From NCBI RefSeq assembly GCF_002865985.1, contig NZ_LNDD01000001.1, forward strand, positions 186,001-250,000: DNA of 64,000 nucleotides, in the 5' to 3' direction. Positions 32,477 through 36,846 of the stretch are shown here, piece by piece; positions within the stretch are counted from its first letter, which is position 1, and each line of letters opens with the position of its first letter. Origin of the DNA: Thermotoga sp. SG1. GTDB lineage: Bacteria > Thermotogota > Thermotogae > Thermotogales > Thermotogaceae. The position numbers were made by a program, and so were the translations under genes. The notes beneath the pieces are model-generated. The model had not been told where the DNA came from. It searched no databases and was given only the letters and a program-made list of their open reading frames with translations.

Positions 32477-33411
32477 GCCAACCTCCCGCTCTGCGCGAAC
32501 ACACCGAATATTCCTCCTGTATGGACGAATAGAATCTTCTTTCCAGAAGACCTGAACATCTCCAGTGTTCCTCTGAAGGCCTTCGAGGTGTATACTGGGT
32601 CAAGAACGATCGCTTCCTTCGCTGCGATCTCCTTTATAACGTTCACATCTTCATCGGAAGGAACGGCATAGGCCGGTCCTCTGAACGAATCCACTATCTC
32701 GAATCTGGGTTCTTTCACCTCCACGCCGAGTTTTTCCATATCCCTAACGATCTTCTTCACTTTTTCAACGAAGTAATCTGCATTTTTCGTTGTGACGTTC
32801 ACACCGATCACCGGTACACGATAGCCCAGGAAAGAAAGAGCTGTCGAGATTCCCGCTATCGTTCCACCACTTCCCACGGCACAAACGATTGCCTCGAACG
32901 ATTCTACATCAATCTGATCCTTCAACTCCATCACCATGTTGAAATAACCGAGGGCTCCCAGGGCGTTCGATCCTCCCTCCGGTATGATGTAGACTCTTTC
33001 TCCCCTCTTTTCCCTCTCTTTCCTGTACTCCAAAAAGATCTCGTCGATGTTATCGTACTCTTCGGAAGATACCTCCACGATTTCTGCTCCAAGGAGCATA
33101 TCCAGCAGGAGATTTCCGTTCAAGACTTTTTCACCTTTTCTGAGGAACAGAACGGGTTTTAGCCCGAGTTTTTTGGAAACGTACGCAGTTGCCCTGGCAT
33201 GGTTCGATTGAAGACCCCCACAGGTGAAAATTGTTGTCGCTCCCTGTTTCAGAGCATCTCCCATCAGGTATTCAAGTTTTCTGATCTTGTTTCCAGAACC
33301 AAGAAGCTCTGTGAGATCGTCTCTTTTGATGTAGAGATCGAATCCGTACTCTGCCGAGATTTTCCTCAAAAATTGAACGGGAGTTGGCTTGATGGCAAGA
33401 TCGATTCTCAT
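32473..33411 (-). CDS. PLP-dependent D-cysteine desulfhydrase / ACC deaminase family enzyme
   Basis: A 312-residue fold-type II PLP enzyme. The cofactor lysine is Lys42 in GSGNKIRKLEYL, and the phosphate-binding loop is AVGSGGTIAG near residue 178. TCGGLQSNHARATA near 65 is typical of D-cysteine desulfhydrases and ACC deaminases. Sequence alone does not separate these activities, but most non-plant-associated members act on D-cysteine or related D-amino acids. Start ATG 33411 follows GGAGGGG; an alternative two codons earlier is weaker. It shares a divergent promoter region with birA. Confidence 0.85.
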   Translation of the reverse strand: MRIDLAIKPTPVQFLRKISAEYGFDLYIKRDDLTELLGSGNKIRKLEYLMGDALKQGATTIFTCGGLQSNHARATAYVSKKLGLKPVLFLRKGEKVLNGNLLLDMLLGAEIVEVSSEEYDNIDEIFLEYRKEREKRGERVYIIPEGGSNALGALGYFNMVMELKDQIDVESFEAIVCAVGSGGTIAGISTALSFLGYRVPVIGVNVTTKNADYFVEKVKKIVRDMEKLGVEVKEPRFEIVDSFRGPAYAVPSDEDVNVIKEIAAKEAIVLDPVYTSKAFRGTLEMFRSSGKKILFVHTGGIFGVFAQSGRLA

Positions 33412-33430
33412 AACCACCCCTCCTTTCGTT

Positions 33431-33439
33431 TGTTAGAAT
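33431..33439 (+). promoter_or_regulatory. Predicted extended -10 promoter of birA
   Basis: The plus strand reads TGT TAGAAT. A start near 33446 gives a leader of about 16 nt with the GGAGGG ribosome site of birA near its 5' end. The hexamer overlaps the -10 hexamer of the divergent PLP-enzyme promoter by two bases. Confidence 0.5.
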
Positions 33440-33446
33440 TGTAACA
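33438..33446 (-). promoter_or_regulatory. Predicted extended -10 promoter of the PLP enzyme-DUF554 unit
   Basis: The minus strand reads TGT TACAAT. A start near 33431 gives a leader of about 20 nt. Together with the birA element it forms a near-perfect 16-base palindrome, so polymerase could bind in either direction but not both at once. Confidence 0.5.
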
Positions 33447-33461
33447 CGGAGGGATGTTGAA

Positions 33462-34169
33462 ATGATCGGAGAGAAGATCATCTCGTTTGAAACGATAGAT
33501 TCCACGAACCGATTTCTGAAAGAATATTTCTCAAAATACCCCAGTGGAACGGTTGTAGTTGCCCTGGAACAAACTTCGGGATACGGTAGAAACAAAAGAA
33601 AATGGTATTCGTCAAAGGGTGGTCTGTGGTTTTCCGTACTATTCAAGCCAAGAAAACAGGTAGACACAACCTTCTATACCAGGGTGTTTTCCGTTGCTGT
33701 TGTGAGAGCACTGGAGACCTTCAAAGTTCATGCGGACATAAAATGGCCAAACGACATTTACGTACGCGGCAGAAAACTCGCAGGAATTCTTACAGAGGGG
33801 ATCTTCGAAGGAAAAAAGCCGCTGGCGATAGTTGTGGGAGTGGGTATGAATGTGAACAACGAAATTCCGGATGAACTGAAAACGAGGGCGGTCAGTCTGA
33901 AGGAAATCCTCGGTAGGGAAATACCTCTGATGAAACTACTGGGATTGATACTGAAAAATGCCCGGATGCTTTTCAGAAAATACACCAGGAAAAAAGAGGC
34001 ACTGACGAGGATCTGGAAAAGACACCTGCTCCAGAAGGAAGGAAACATCGTTACCTTTTCAGAAAACAACCAGGAAAAGAGAGGAAAGATCCTGAAAATC
34101 CTGCCAGATCATCTGCTCGTCGAAACCGATGAAGGTGTCAGGAAGGTCTATTCACTCTCTCTTCACTGA
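33462..34169 (+). CDS. birA: Biotin--[acetyl-CoA-carboxylase] ligase, catalytic-only form
   Basis: A 235-residue biotin protein ligase that makes biotinyl-AMP and attaches biotin to carboxylase domains. The start at the catalytic domain (ISFETIDSTNRFLKE) shows there is no N-terminal DNA-binding domain, so it is a class I ligase and not a repressor. The biotin loop reads TSGYGRNKRKW at 39-48 (the usual form is GRGRxxRxW). KWPNDIYVRGRKLAGILTE near 94 and the SH3-like C-terminal domain are present. ATG follows GGAGGG. The last 32 nt overlap the end of the S4 gene on the other strand. Confidence 0.93.
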   Translation: MIGEKIISFETIDSTNRFLKEYFSKYPSGTVVVALEQTSGYGRNKRKWYSSKGGLWFSVLFKPRKQVDTTFYTRVFSVAVVRALETFKVHADIKWPNDIYVRGRKLAGILTEGIFEGKKPLAIVVGVGMNVNNEIPDELKTRAVSLKEILGREIPLMKLLGLILKNARMLFRKYTRKKEALTRIWKRHLLQKEGNIVTFSENNQEKRGKILKILPDHLLVETDEGVRKVYSLSLH

Positions 34170-34371
34170 GAATTTCGTACCCTCCGTTTCCCACCACTCT
34201 CAGTTTCACCTTCTTTGTGGGAAGGAACACCTCCACCACATCACCGTCTTTCACCTCGTAAGAGGCTTTGGCCGGTCTTCCATTCACCAGAACCATCTGT
34301 CCCTTCAAAAGTTTTTGTGCAGCGGTCCTTCTCTTTACGACCGAGATCTTCAGGAACACATCCAGCCTCAT
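34138..34371 (-). CDS. S4-domain RNA-binding protein (RqcP/HslR-like)
   Basis: A 77-residue protein consisting of one S4 RNA-binding domain: MRLDVFLKISVVKRRTAAQKLL, then GQMVLVNGRPAKASYEVKDGD. This single-domain layout matches HslR/RqcP proteins, which bind 50S subunits carrying peptidyl-tRNA and assist C-terminal tailing with RqcH. Whether this one does so is inferred from size and motif only. It overlaps the ECF ATPase gene start-to-stop by 4 nt and ends antisense to birA. Confidence 0.82.
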   Translation of the reverse strand: MRLDVFLKISVVKRRTAAQKLLKGQMVLVNGRPAKASYEVKDGDVVEVFLPTKKVKLRVVGNGGYEILSEERVNRPS

Positions 34372-35168
34372 ATCCGATACACCCTGTCTATCAACTCTTC
34401 ATCTCCCATCGAAAAAGGATCTTCACCCGATAGAAGAAGCCTTCTCATCGTCTTCAACCTGGTCGTGAGGTAATGAACATCGATTTCTCTCAAAAAATCT
34501 TCTCTTGAACCATCGAAGATCTTTCTTCCATTTTCCAGAAACACCACACGATCCACATGCTTTATCACCGTCTCTATGTCGTGCGAGATGATGACAACCG
34601 TTCTTTTCAGTCTCTTCCATTTCTCTATTACCTTCAAAAGATCGCCCTTTCCTTCCCTGTCGAGTCCCACAAGCGGTTCATCAAGCATTAGAACGTCCGG
34701 CTCGTGCACGATCACAGAGGCAATGGCGACCCTCCTCTTTTCACCTCCGGATAGAAAGAAGGGTATTCTATCCTTGAACTCATCGAAGTTCAACCCAACA
34801 AATTCCATCGCTCTCTTCACGAAGGGAACGGGATCTTCATCAGGGTAAAAGTTCCGCACAGCGAAAGCGATCTCATCGAAAACAGTTTCTGCAAAGAACT
34901 GATCTTCTGGATACTGGAACGCTATGCCTATGTGTTTTCTCACCTCGTAACCCTTTCTCTGTCTTCCATCGTACAGCACCTGTCCACCGGTAGGCTCTAT
35001 CAAACCCGCAATGATCTGAAGGAGGGTGGATTTTCCAGATCCGGTGTTTCCAGCAACGAGGAGACACTCTCCCTCCTCGATCGCAAGATCGATATCTCTG
35101 AGTGCGATTCTCTCCAAAGGGGTTCCACGGTAAAAGACATAGGTGACGTTGACGACTTCGATCTTCAT
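34368..35168 (-). CDS. ecfA: Energy-coupling factor transporter ATP-binding protein
   Basis: A 266-residue ABC ATPase of the ECF type, which powers uptake of vitamins such as riboflavin together with an EcfT membrane subunit and exchangeable S components. Walker A is GNTGSGKST at residues 40-48, the Q-loop lies in FQYPEDQFF, the signature is LSGGEKRR, and Walker B is DVLMLDEPLVG. The C-terminal extension (about 220-266) is typical of EcfA dimerisation. I recall that T. maritima encodes its two ECF ATPases at separate places, matching this isolated gene. The ATG at 35168 lies only 7 nt from a TATAAT box and has no ribosome site, suggesting a leaderless message. Confidence 0.9.
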   Translation of the reverse strand: MKIEVVNVTYVFYRGTPLERIALRDIDLAIEEGECLLVAGNTGSGKSTLLQIIAGLIEPTGGQVLYDGRQRKGYEVRKHIGIAFQYPEDQFFAETVFDEIAFAVRNFYPDEDPVPFVKRAMEFVGLNFDEFKDRIPFFLSGGEKRRVAIASVIVHEPDVLMLDEPLVGLDREGKGDLLKVIEKWKRLKRTVVIISHDIETVIKHVDRVVFLENGRKIFDGSREDFLREIDVHYLTTRLKTMRRLLLSGEDPFSMGDEELIDRVYRI

Positions 35169-35175
35169 GTTGAAA

Positions 35176-35184
35176 ATTATAACA
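35176..35184 (-). promoter_or_regulatory. Predicted promoter of ecfA, giving a leaderless mRNA
   Basis: The minus strand reads TGT TATAAT, a perfect extended -10. Only 7 nt separate it from the ATG of ecfA, so transcription should begin at or within 2 nt of the start codon. A weak -35 (CTGAAG) lies 17 nt upstream. Confidence 0.6.
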
Positions 35185-35213
35185 AAGACCGACCGTCTCT
35201 TCAGCCACATACG

Positions 35214-35222
35214 TGGTAAAAT
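35214..35222 (+). promoter_or_regulatory. Predicted extended -10 promoter of the fliF operon
   Basis: The plus strand reads TGG TAAAAT. Initiation near 35229 would place the GAGAGGTGA ribosome site of fliF at the very 5' end, with a leader of about 15 nt. This fits the housekeeping-like pattern elsewhere in the window; no sigma-28-type flagellar promoter is seen. Confidence 0.5.
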
Positions 35223-35244: not shown

Positions 35245-36846
35245 ATGAATCTTTTCGAGCAAATCAAAAATCTCTGGAAGAAGATCTCCGATTTATGGAA
35301 CTCCATGCCGCGGGAAAGAAGATTTCTGGTAGGGGGCATCGCAGCGGCCCTCATAATATCTATCGTTCTCTTTGCAATAATAGCCGCCACCCCACACTAC
35401 AGACTCCTTGTTGCTGGCCTCAGCGAAGAAGAGGCGGGAACGATCATTCAGAAACTCGAAGAGATGAACATTCTCTACAAAGTCTCCCCAAGTGGAGACA
35501 TTTACATCTCCGACAAATACAACGTCTACGAGTTGAGAATGAAACTCGCTTCCGAAGGAATACTTGGAGGAACAAGACGGGGTTTCTCCATACTCAGCGA
35601 AAACTCGTTCGGGGCCACCAGCTTTGACAAACAGGTGAAATACCAGATCGCTCTACAACAGGAACTTGAAAGAAGTATCATGACCATCAGGGGAGTCAAA
35701 GACGCCCGGGTCCACCTGGTTTTGCCGAAGTACACCTATTACGTCCGCGGAGAGATGGCTGAACCACGTGCCTCCGTCCTCGTTGTGCTGGAACCCGGTG
35801 CTGAGCTCACACGAGAGCAGGTAAGAGGAATCGTTGAACTCGTCTCGGGAGCCGTTGAGGGGTTGAAACCAGAAAATGTAAGAGTGGTGGACAACTACTC
35901 CAGATCGCTCAGTGACATGCTGGAAAGTGACGAAGGAACCTTTTTGGCGTCCAGTAAACTGGAACTGAAACAGCAACTTGAGAAATACTACGAAAACAAG
36001 TTGAAGAAAGCACTTGAGAGCGTTTTTGGTCCAGGAAGGGTAGAGGTGATTCCCGATGTTTCTCTGAACTGGACGAAGATAGAAACGGAAATGAAAAGGT
36101 ACGAAGCACCGGCCAGAAGAGAAGGACTGGTCAGAAGTCAGGAGACAGAGACTGAAAGAAGCCAAAATCTGCCTGTTAGTGGCGGTGAAGTCGGAACTGA
36201 GTCGAATATACCTCCTCTTAGCTATCCATCCGTGAGCGGCGAGGGAACGAGTACATACGAGAGAACCCACACCATCACCAACTACGAGTTGAACGAGATC
36301 TATCAGAAGATCCTTCAGAACCACGAAGGGGAGATATCGTCTCTTTCTGTTGCTGTCATAATCGACGCTTCCTCCACAGTTCTTCAAAGCAACAACAACT
36401 GGAACAATATCATAAACGACCTGGTGGAGAAGGGGATCGGTTCTGTCACCTCTTCCGCTTCTTTGAGCGTTGCGGTGGCGTTCTTGCCTTTCGACAGAAC
36501 GATTGAAAGAACCCTGCAGAGGGAATTGGAGCAGCTTCAGGCAAGAAAGAGGTTCACCATGTACTCGCTTGGAATCGCCATCCTTGGTTTTCTCACCTTT
36601 CTGCTCGTGTACATCCTGATAGTGCAGATCCGAAGAATCAGGGCCAGAAAACTGGCAGAAGAAAGAAGAAGAAAGCTCGAAGAAGAGATAAAAGAAGTCC
36701 TCCAGGAAGAGATGAAAGAAGAAAAAGAACTCTTACCCGAAGAGAAGGAACTGATGGAACTCATAGAAGAGCTGGAGAACATCTTCATCCGATCACCCGC
36801 TGATATCGCTGAGATAGTCCGTCTGTGGTTCTTCGAGAGGGGATGA
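35245..36846 (+). CDS. fliF: Flagellar MS-ring protein FliF
   Basis: A 533-residue membrane protein that forms the MS ring at the base of the flagellum. Two membrane helices bracket a large periplasmic part: about 28-50 (VGGIAAALIISIVLFAI) and about 437-460 (YSLGIAILGFLTFLLVYILI). The ring-building motifs are clear: LLVAGLSEEEAGTIIQKLEE near 54, IALQQELERSIMTIRGVKDARVHL, and SASVLVV-like ASVLVVLEPG. The charged cytoplasmic tail ends IVRLWFFERG, the FliG-binding signature. ATG 35245 is preferred to GTG 35233, which lies in the ribosome site. It opens the fliFGHI operon. Confidence 0.95.
   Translation: MNLFEQIKNLWKKISDLWNSMPRERRFLVGGIAAALIISIVLFAIIAATPHYRLLVAGLSEEEAGTIIQKLEEMNILYKVSPSGDIYISDKYNVYELRMKLASEGILGGTRRGFSILSENSFGATSFDKQVKYQIALQQELERSIMTIRGVKDARVHLVLPKYTYYVRGEMAEPRASVLVVLEPGAELTREQVRGIVELVSGAVEGLKPENVRVVDNYSRSLSDMLESDEGTFLASSKLELKQQLEKYYENKLKKALESVFGPGRVEVIPDVSLNWTKIETEMKRYEAPARREGLVRSQETETERSQNLPVSGGEVGTESNIPPLSYPSVSGEGTSTYERTHTITNYELNEIYQKILQNHEGEISSLSVAVIIDASSTVLQSNNNWNNIINDLVEKGIGSVTSSASLSVAVAFLPFDRTIERTLQRELEQLQARKRFTMYSLGIAILGFLTFLLVYILIVQIRRIRARKLAEERRRKLEEEIKEVLQEEMKEEKELLPEEKELMELIEELENIFIRSPADIAEIVRLWFFERG

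Follow-up and report, generated by a model that had tools for sequence, protein, structure and literature searches.

The 64,000-nt window, by which we mean the whole stretch of Thermotoga sp. SG1 DNA that was analysed, carries ecfA2 and an S4-domain gene on its minus strand, with fliF diverging from them on the plus strand. The features of the locus are as follows.

35176..35184, minus strand: extended -10 promoter element of ecfA2, TGT-TATAAT (TGTTATAAT), read directly.
35169..35175, minus strand: discriminator of ecfA2, TTTCAAC, 7 nt long in all seven Thermotoga genomes, this one included.
35168 (the A of the ATG) or 35169, minus strand: predicted ecfA2 transcription start.
34368..35168, minus strand: ecfA2 coding sequence, 266 aa, with its ATG at 35168..35166 and no Shine-Dalgarno (SD) site; orthologue of TM_0222 (EcfA2).
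34138..34371, minus strand: S4-domain gene (open reading frame, Pfam S4), 77 aa, second gene of the predicted transcript.
35214..35222, plus strand: probable fliF promoter, an extended -10-like TGG-TAAAAT in the direct reading.
35245..36846, plus strand: fliF (TIGR00206, 263.5 bits), the divergent neighbour, led by an SD site of -11.9 kcal/mol.

The ecfA2 product contains a Pfam ABC_tran domain, and its best PDB matches were 2yz2, 4zir, and 4hlu (TM_0222/EcfA2 chains), at 454 to 456 bits. The 455.7-bit match to 2yz2 identifies it as the TM_0222 orthologue; against TIGR04521 it scored 245.5 bits, under the cut-off of 330. The ecfA2 stop codon and the start of the S4 gene overlap as ATGA. Read on the minus strand from 35184 to 35166, the sequence runs TGT-TATAAT-TTTCAAC-ATG, which bears out the claim of an earlier sequence-only reading that the element lies 7 nt from the ATG of this gene (there called ecfA): TGTTATAAT occupies 35184..35176 and the spacer 35175..35169. 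This element occurs once in the window, against 0.11 expected from shuffles, and 19 times in the whole genome. The -35 region was poor, with no good match by eye. A consensus scan listed no minus-strand promoter at ecfA2; it returned a chance-level plus-strand promoter match at 35149-35177 and, just upstream of the gene on the minus strand, two chance-level terminator-like stems (35207..35187). No Rfam match in the window reached the gathering threshold.

To place the missing ribosome site in context, SD duplex energies were compared across 442 genes called with a home-made hexamer caller in 464 kb, made up of the window and 400 kb of contig C3. The energy at the ecfA2 ATG was -0.5 kcal/mol, the third weakest among the 442, and with such a caller the two starts below it may have been misplaced. 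The median was -11.9 kcal/mol, with 421 of 442 genes at -5 kcal/mol or stronger; for the 65 genes called in the window the corresponding values were -11.8 kcal/mol and 61 genes. The sequence-only reading had stated that ecfA lacks a ribosome site while almost every other gene here has a strong one, and both statements proved accurate. The sample held 45 divergent pairs, 23 of them with starts less than 110 nt apart; among these 23, a start weaker than -5 kcal/mol was seen only in the ecfA2-fliF pair.

The distance from the -10 hexamer to the start codon also sets ecfA2 apart, as it was the only one of the 442 called starts with a TA...T hexamer (at least 5/6 identity to TATAAT) 5 to 9 nt upstream. 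When such hexamers were searched for to 44 nt, all lay at least 13 nt upstream save three, at 1, 3, and 7 nt, the last being that of ecfA2. With TGn required and 4/6 identity allowed, one lay at 7 nt (ecfA2), one at 11 nt, and the others at least 16 nt upstream. The short-leader group of T. maritima has leaders of 11-17 nt, according to the available text of PMC3636130. Taken with -10 distances that begin at 13-16 nt, these leaders put the transcription start about 6 to 7 nt past the hexamer in our calibration, and a spacing of 7 nt would then correspond to a leader of 0 to 1 nt.

From the layout of the sequence, we hold with good confidence that ecfA2 and the S4 gene are transcribed as a leaderless mRNA. 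The extended -10 element would be recognised by sigma-A RNA polymerase, with transcription starting on the A of the ATG or on the preceding C and giving an mRNA that begins (C)AUGAAG, and we infer that ribosomes would initiate on this 5'-terminal AUG without SD pairing.

A family search over 14 genomes recovered eight syntenic orthologues of ecfA2, seven from Thermotoga and one from a sister genus (G004); the seven include close relatives and represent about four Thermotoga lineages by eye. The S4 gene lies downstream in all eight and the upstream neighbour is always the divergent fliF, and translational coupling to an upstream gene does not explain the start. TATAAT is present in 8/8. Its distance to the ATG is exactly 7 nt in all seven Thermotoga genomes, so the spacing is kept, the check that the sequence-only reading had proposed; in G004 the hexamer precedes a GTG by 8 nt. 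Across the seven Thermotoga genomes, identical columns made up 6/6 of the hexamer, 3/7 of the spacer, and 1/37 of the upstream region. Such clustering would have a chance of about 1e-6 if seven identical columns fell at random, although the genomes are related. The SD energy of the orthologues ranged from -0.3 to -0.8 kcal/mol in four genomes, including this one, and was -2.2 in G004; the value of -5.4 in G005, G007, and G008 appears by eye to be a weak pairing of the promoter's GTGAT, far from the ATG.

Some further observations concern the wider family. In G004, a start 7 nt past the hexamer would give a message beginning AUGUGAAG (locus L016, around 1501), in which a stop codon comes directly after the 5' AUG and the two overlap the ecfA2 GUG. 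The SD-led ecfA2 homologues of G001-G003 were considered as an older state of the locus and set aside; neither fliF nor the S4 gene was detected within 1.5 kb on either side, and they were not counted as orthologues. No syntenic SD-led relative was found in the search over 14 genomes. A scan of genome contigs returned nine loci, none from Thermotoga, with near records possibly left out.

The conservation pattern bears directly on other accounts of the locus. On the opposite strand the hexamer reads ATTATA and might be part of the fliF promoter, its nearness to the ecfA2 ATG being a by-product; the two promoters do lie close together in compact genomes, with 49 nt between the starts in G005. 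However, the spacing to ecfA2 is fixed among the Thermotoga genomes while fliF lies anywhere between 49 and 147 nt away, which assigns the element to ecfA2, and fliF carries its own TGGTAAAAT in this genome. We regard this account as very improbable, and we give similarly little credence to the idea that ecfA2 translation begins elsewhere, at the in-frame ATG at 35210 or at a downstream start. Upstream candidates of this kind exist, namely the ATG 14 codons up in this genome, one in G006, and an in-frame TTG in G010, but the ATG at 35210 is likewise without an SD site (-0.3 kcal/mol), and 5/8 orthologues (G005, G007, G008, G009, and G004) have no in-frame ATG, GTG, or TTG before the upstream stop. 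The next in-frame start within the gene, 17 codons in (SD -3.3), would remove an N terminus that aligns with the TM_0222 structure from residue 1.

It is unlikely, in our judgment, that a more distant promoter, beneath or within fliF, gives ecfA2 a leader and that translation proceeds by other means than an SD site (e.g., protein S1 or an unstructured start), with TATAAT as a relic or a minor start. The published map, which in its available text contains no leaderless transcripts (PMC3636130), would suit such a leader, and the first 45 coding nt of ecfA2 are slightly less structured than usual (-4.9 against a median of -6.3 kcal/mol, with 135 of 442 genes weaker still). Yet the hexamer and its spacing are kept where the upstream sequence is not, and there is no evident reason for a transcribed leader to hold a 7-nt spacing.

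It is also important to set out what counts against a leaderless ecfA2. In the available text of their report, Latif et al. did not detect leaderless transcripts in T. maritima and tied this to the exclusive use of ribosome sites; their map comprised 748 transcription units and 676 unique start sites, with 5' ends kept when supported by at least five reads (PMC3636130). The 2017 survey of Nakagawa et al., in the part available, included a single Thermotogae genome with a negative leaderless/S1 component, -5.58. The SD value of -5.4 in three genomes and the consensus scan, with no minus-strand promoter listed at ecfA2, also weigh on this side. Searches confined to open-licence PMC papers, in the text available, turned up no leaderless gene described for Thermotoga, and no paper was found that links 'TM0222' with T. 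maritima. The leaderless start proposed in the sequence-only reading is thus strengthened by the fixed spacing above an unconserved upstream region, by the five orthologues without an alternative start, and by two more genes of the same build, and it stands against the published report for T. maritima. The further suggestion of that reading, that ecfA might react to conditions in its own way, is a conjecture.

These two genes came from a partial survey of the same genome, in which TATAAT-N4-9-ATG occurred at 31 places and 30 were examined (C5:269500 was left out). Frames of at least 150 aa with no SD site, no SD-led start nearby, and no longer frame around them were found only at spacing 7, and they were ecfA2 and the following.

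G000:C1:46938, minus strand: HhH-GPD gene (endonuclease III-like), 219 aa, TATAAT-N7-ATG, no SD site (L050/L117).
G000:C4:27811, minus strand: DUF429 gene, 225 aa, TATAAT-N7-ATG, no SD site (L088/L125).

All three genes stand head-to-head with a neighbour. The HhH-GPD gene carries TATAATTTTAAGTATG in 7/7 Thermotoga genomes and has a divergent nitroreductase gene 27-28 nt away (27 in this genome). G004 keeps this neighbour, at 76% identity, with about 71 nt between it and the HhH-GPD homologue, which is cut by the contig end and has a GTG start with an SD site of -13.7 kcal/mol. Because the sister genus has both the longer gap and the SD site, we infer that the leader was lost at this locus. 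The DUF429 gene was found in five of the seven Thermotoga genomes, with TATAATGTACACGATG in 5/5, and is separated from its divergent neighbour by 28-30 nt (28 nt, from a radical-SAM gene, in this genome); its homologues are SD-led in G004 (-8.6, start uncertain) and G003 (-15.3). The gaps at these two loci are shorter than the smallest divergent gap in the 442-gene sample, which is 42 nt with SD sites on both sides. Lack of space alone was rejected as the cause of a leaderless ecfA2, since pairs 42-51 nt apart keep both SD sites. As a separate observation, the divergent genes at 33411-33462 of the window and at C3:279050-279093 (L110), 42-55 nt apart with SD sites on both sides, have near-symmetric -10 elements by eye, the appearance of very compact bidirectional promoters.

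Several other candidates were rejected. A response-regulator gene (Pfam; L206, G000:C1:326140, minus strand) with TGTTAAAAT-N7-ATG was considered as a fourth case, and TG(T/C)TAAAAT-N7-ATG is kept there in 7/7 Thermotoga genomes. In all seven, the hexamer is part of the coding sequence of the upstream frame (...PMLKFS-stop), whose stop overlaps the ATG as TGATG, and coupling therefore explains the start; the G004 gene has 18 nt between hexamer and ATG, together with an SD site. Among frames of at least 150 aa with TATAAT near the start, L070, L093, L195, L198, L205, and L245 show, by eye, a start with an SD site a few codons downstream. Longer frames enclose L094 and L187, the coding score of L229 is negative, and the frames of L072 (100 aa) and L091 (63 aa) belong to tRNA genes. 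The relaxed pattern TGnTA...T-N7-ATG occurred at 66 places in this genome, 18 of them with a frame of at least 40 aa and a coding score above 5; beyond ecfA2 and the response regulator, these were mostly continuations of an upstream coding frame, with an SD site of -11.6 kcal/mol at one of them. None of 17 TATAAT-N6-8-GTG and five TAAAAT-N7-ATG places was accepted, and 20 regions of the 54 matches listed for G005, examined along with the three known genes, gave no further case. As the genome-wide survey was confined to these -10 patterns with ATG or GTG, three leaderless genes may be too few. At L074 (G000:C1:393874), the frame after TATAATAATACCATG has 35 codons here and 242 in G005 (L195), possibly through a frameshift or an assembly error.

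The layout of ecfA2 resembles that of known leaderless genes. The available text of PMC12340547 describes -10-adjacent-ORF leaderless genes in Deinococcus, in which the ribosome site is replaced by a -10 hexamer some 6-7 bp ahead of the reading frame, and states that almost a third of D. radiodurans genes are of this type. In Deinococcus-Thermus as at ecfA2, the -10 element lies 6-7 nt before the start and there is no SD site, the 5' end of ecfA2 being placed from sequence. The scale differs, with three genes in the partial Thermotoga survey, each with a full TATAAT, in an SD-dominated hyperthermophile. The TA-led genes of Zheng et al. 2011, as presented in the available text (PMC3160421), have the same layout, and 'Thermotoga' does not occur in the main text of that paper.

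Bidirectional promoters of E. coli with a shared -10 element offer a second comparison, likewise involving start sites that diverge across a very short piece of DNA, 10-23 bp and commonly 18 bp apart according to the available text of PMC12825309, in which the word 'leaderless' is absent. The HhH-GPD and DUF429 loci, with estimated starts 16-17 bp apart, are near the common E. coli distance and fit better than ecfA2. The ecfA2-fliF pair does not share an element; its -10 elements are separate, with 35 bp between them, and the estimated distance from one start to the other is about 61 bp in this genome and about 34 bp in G005.

Taken together, the sequence places ecfA2 probably in a very small Thermotoga class of known layout, in a genus where the class has been reported absent. 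On balance, we favour the view that Thermotoga holds a tiny, evolutionarily stable leaderless set, which would have arisen as tightly packed head-to-head genes (27-30 nt at two loci) cost one partner its leader, with the -10 element placed for a start at the AUG. If this is true, three conserved exceptions would correct the T. maritima report of exclusive ribosome-site use, as given in the available text of PMC3636130, and the packing of divergent genes may turn an SD-led gene leaderless, with the sister genus showing the 'before' state at one locus. It would also mean that hyperthermophile ribosomes are able to begin translation at a bare 5' AUG, a process that would become open to direct testing at about 80 C.
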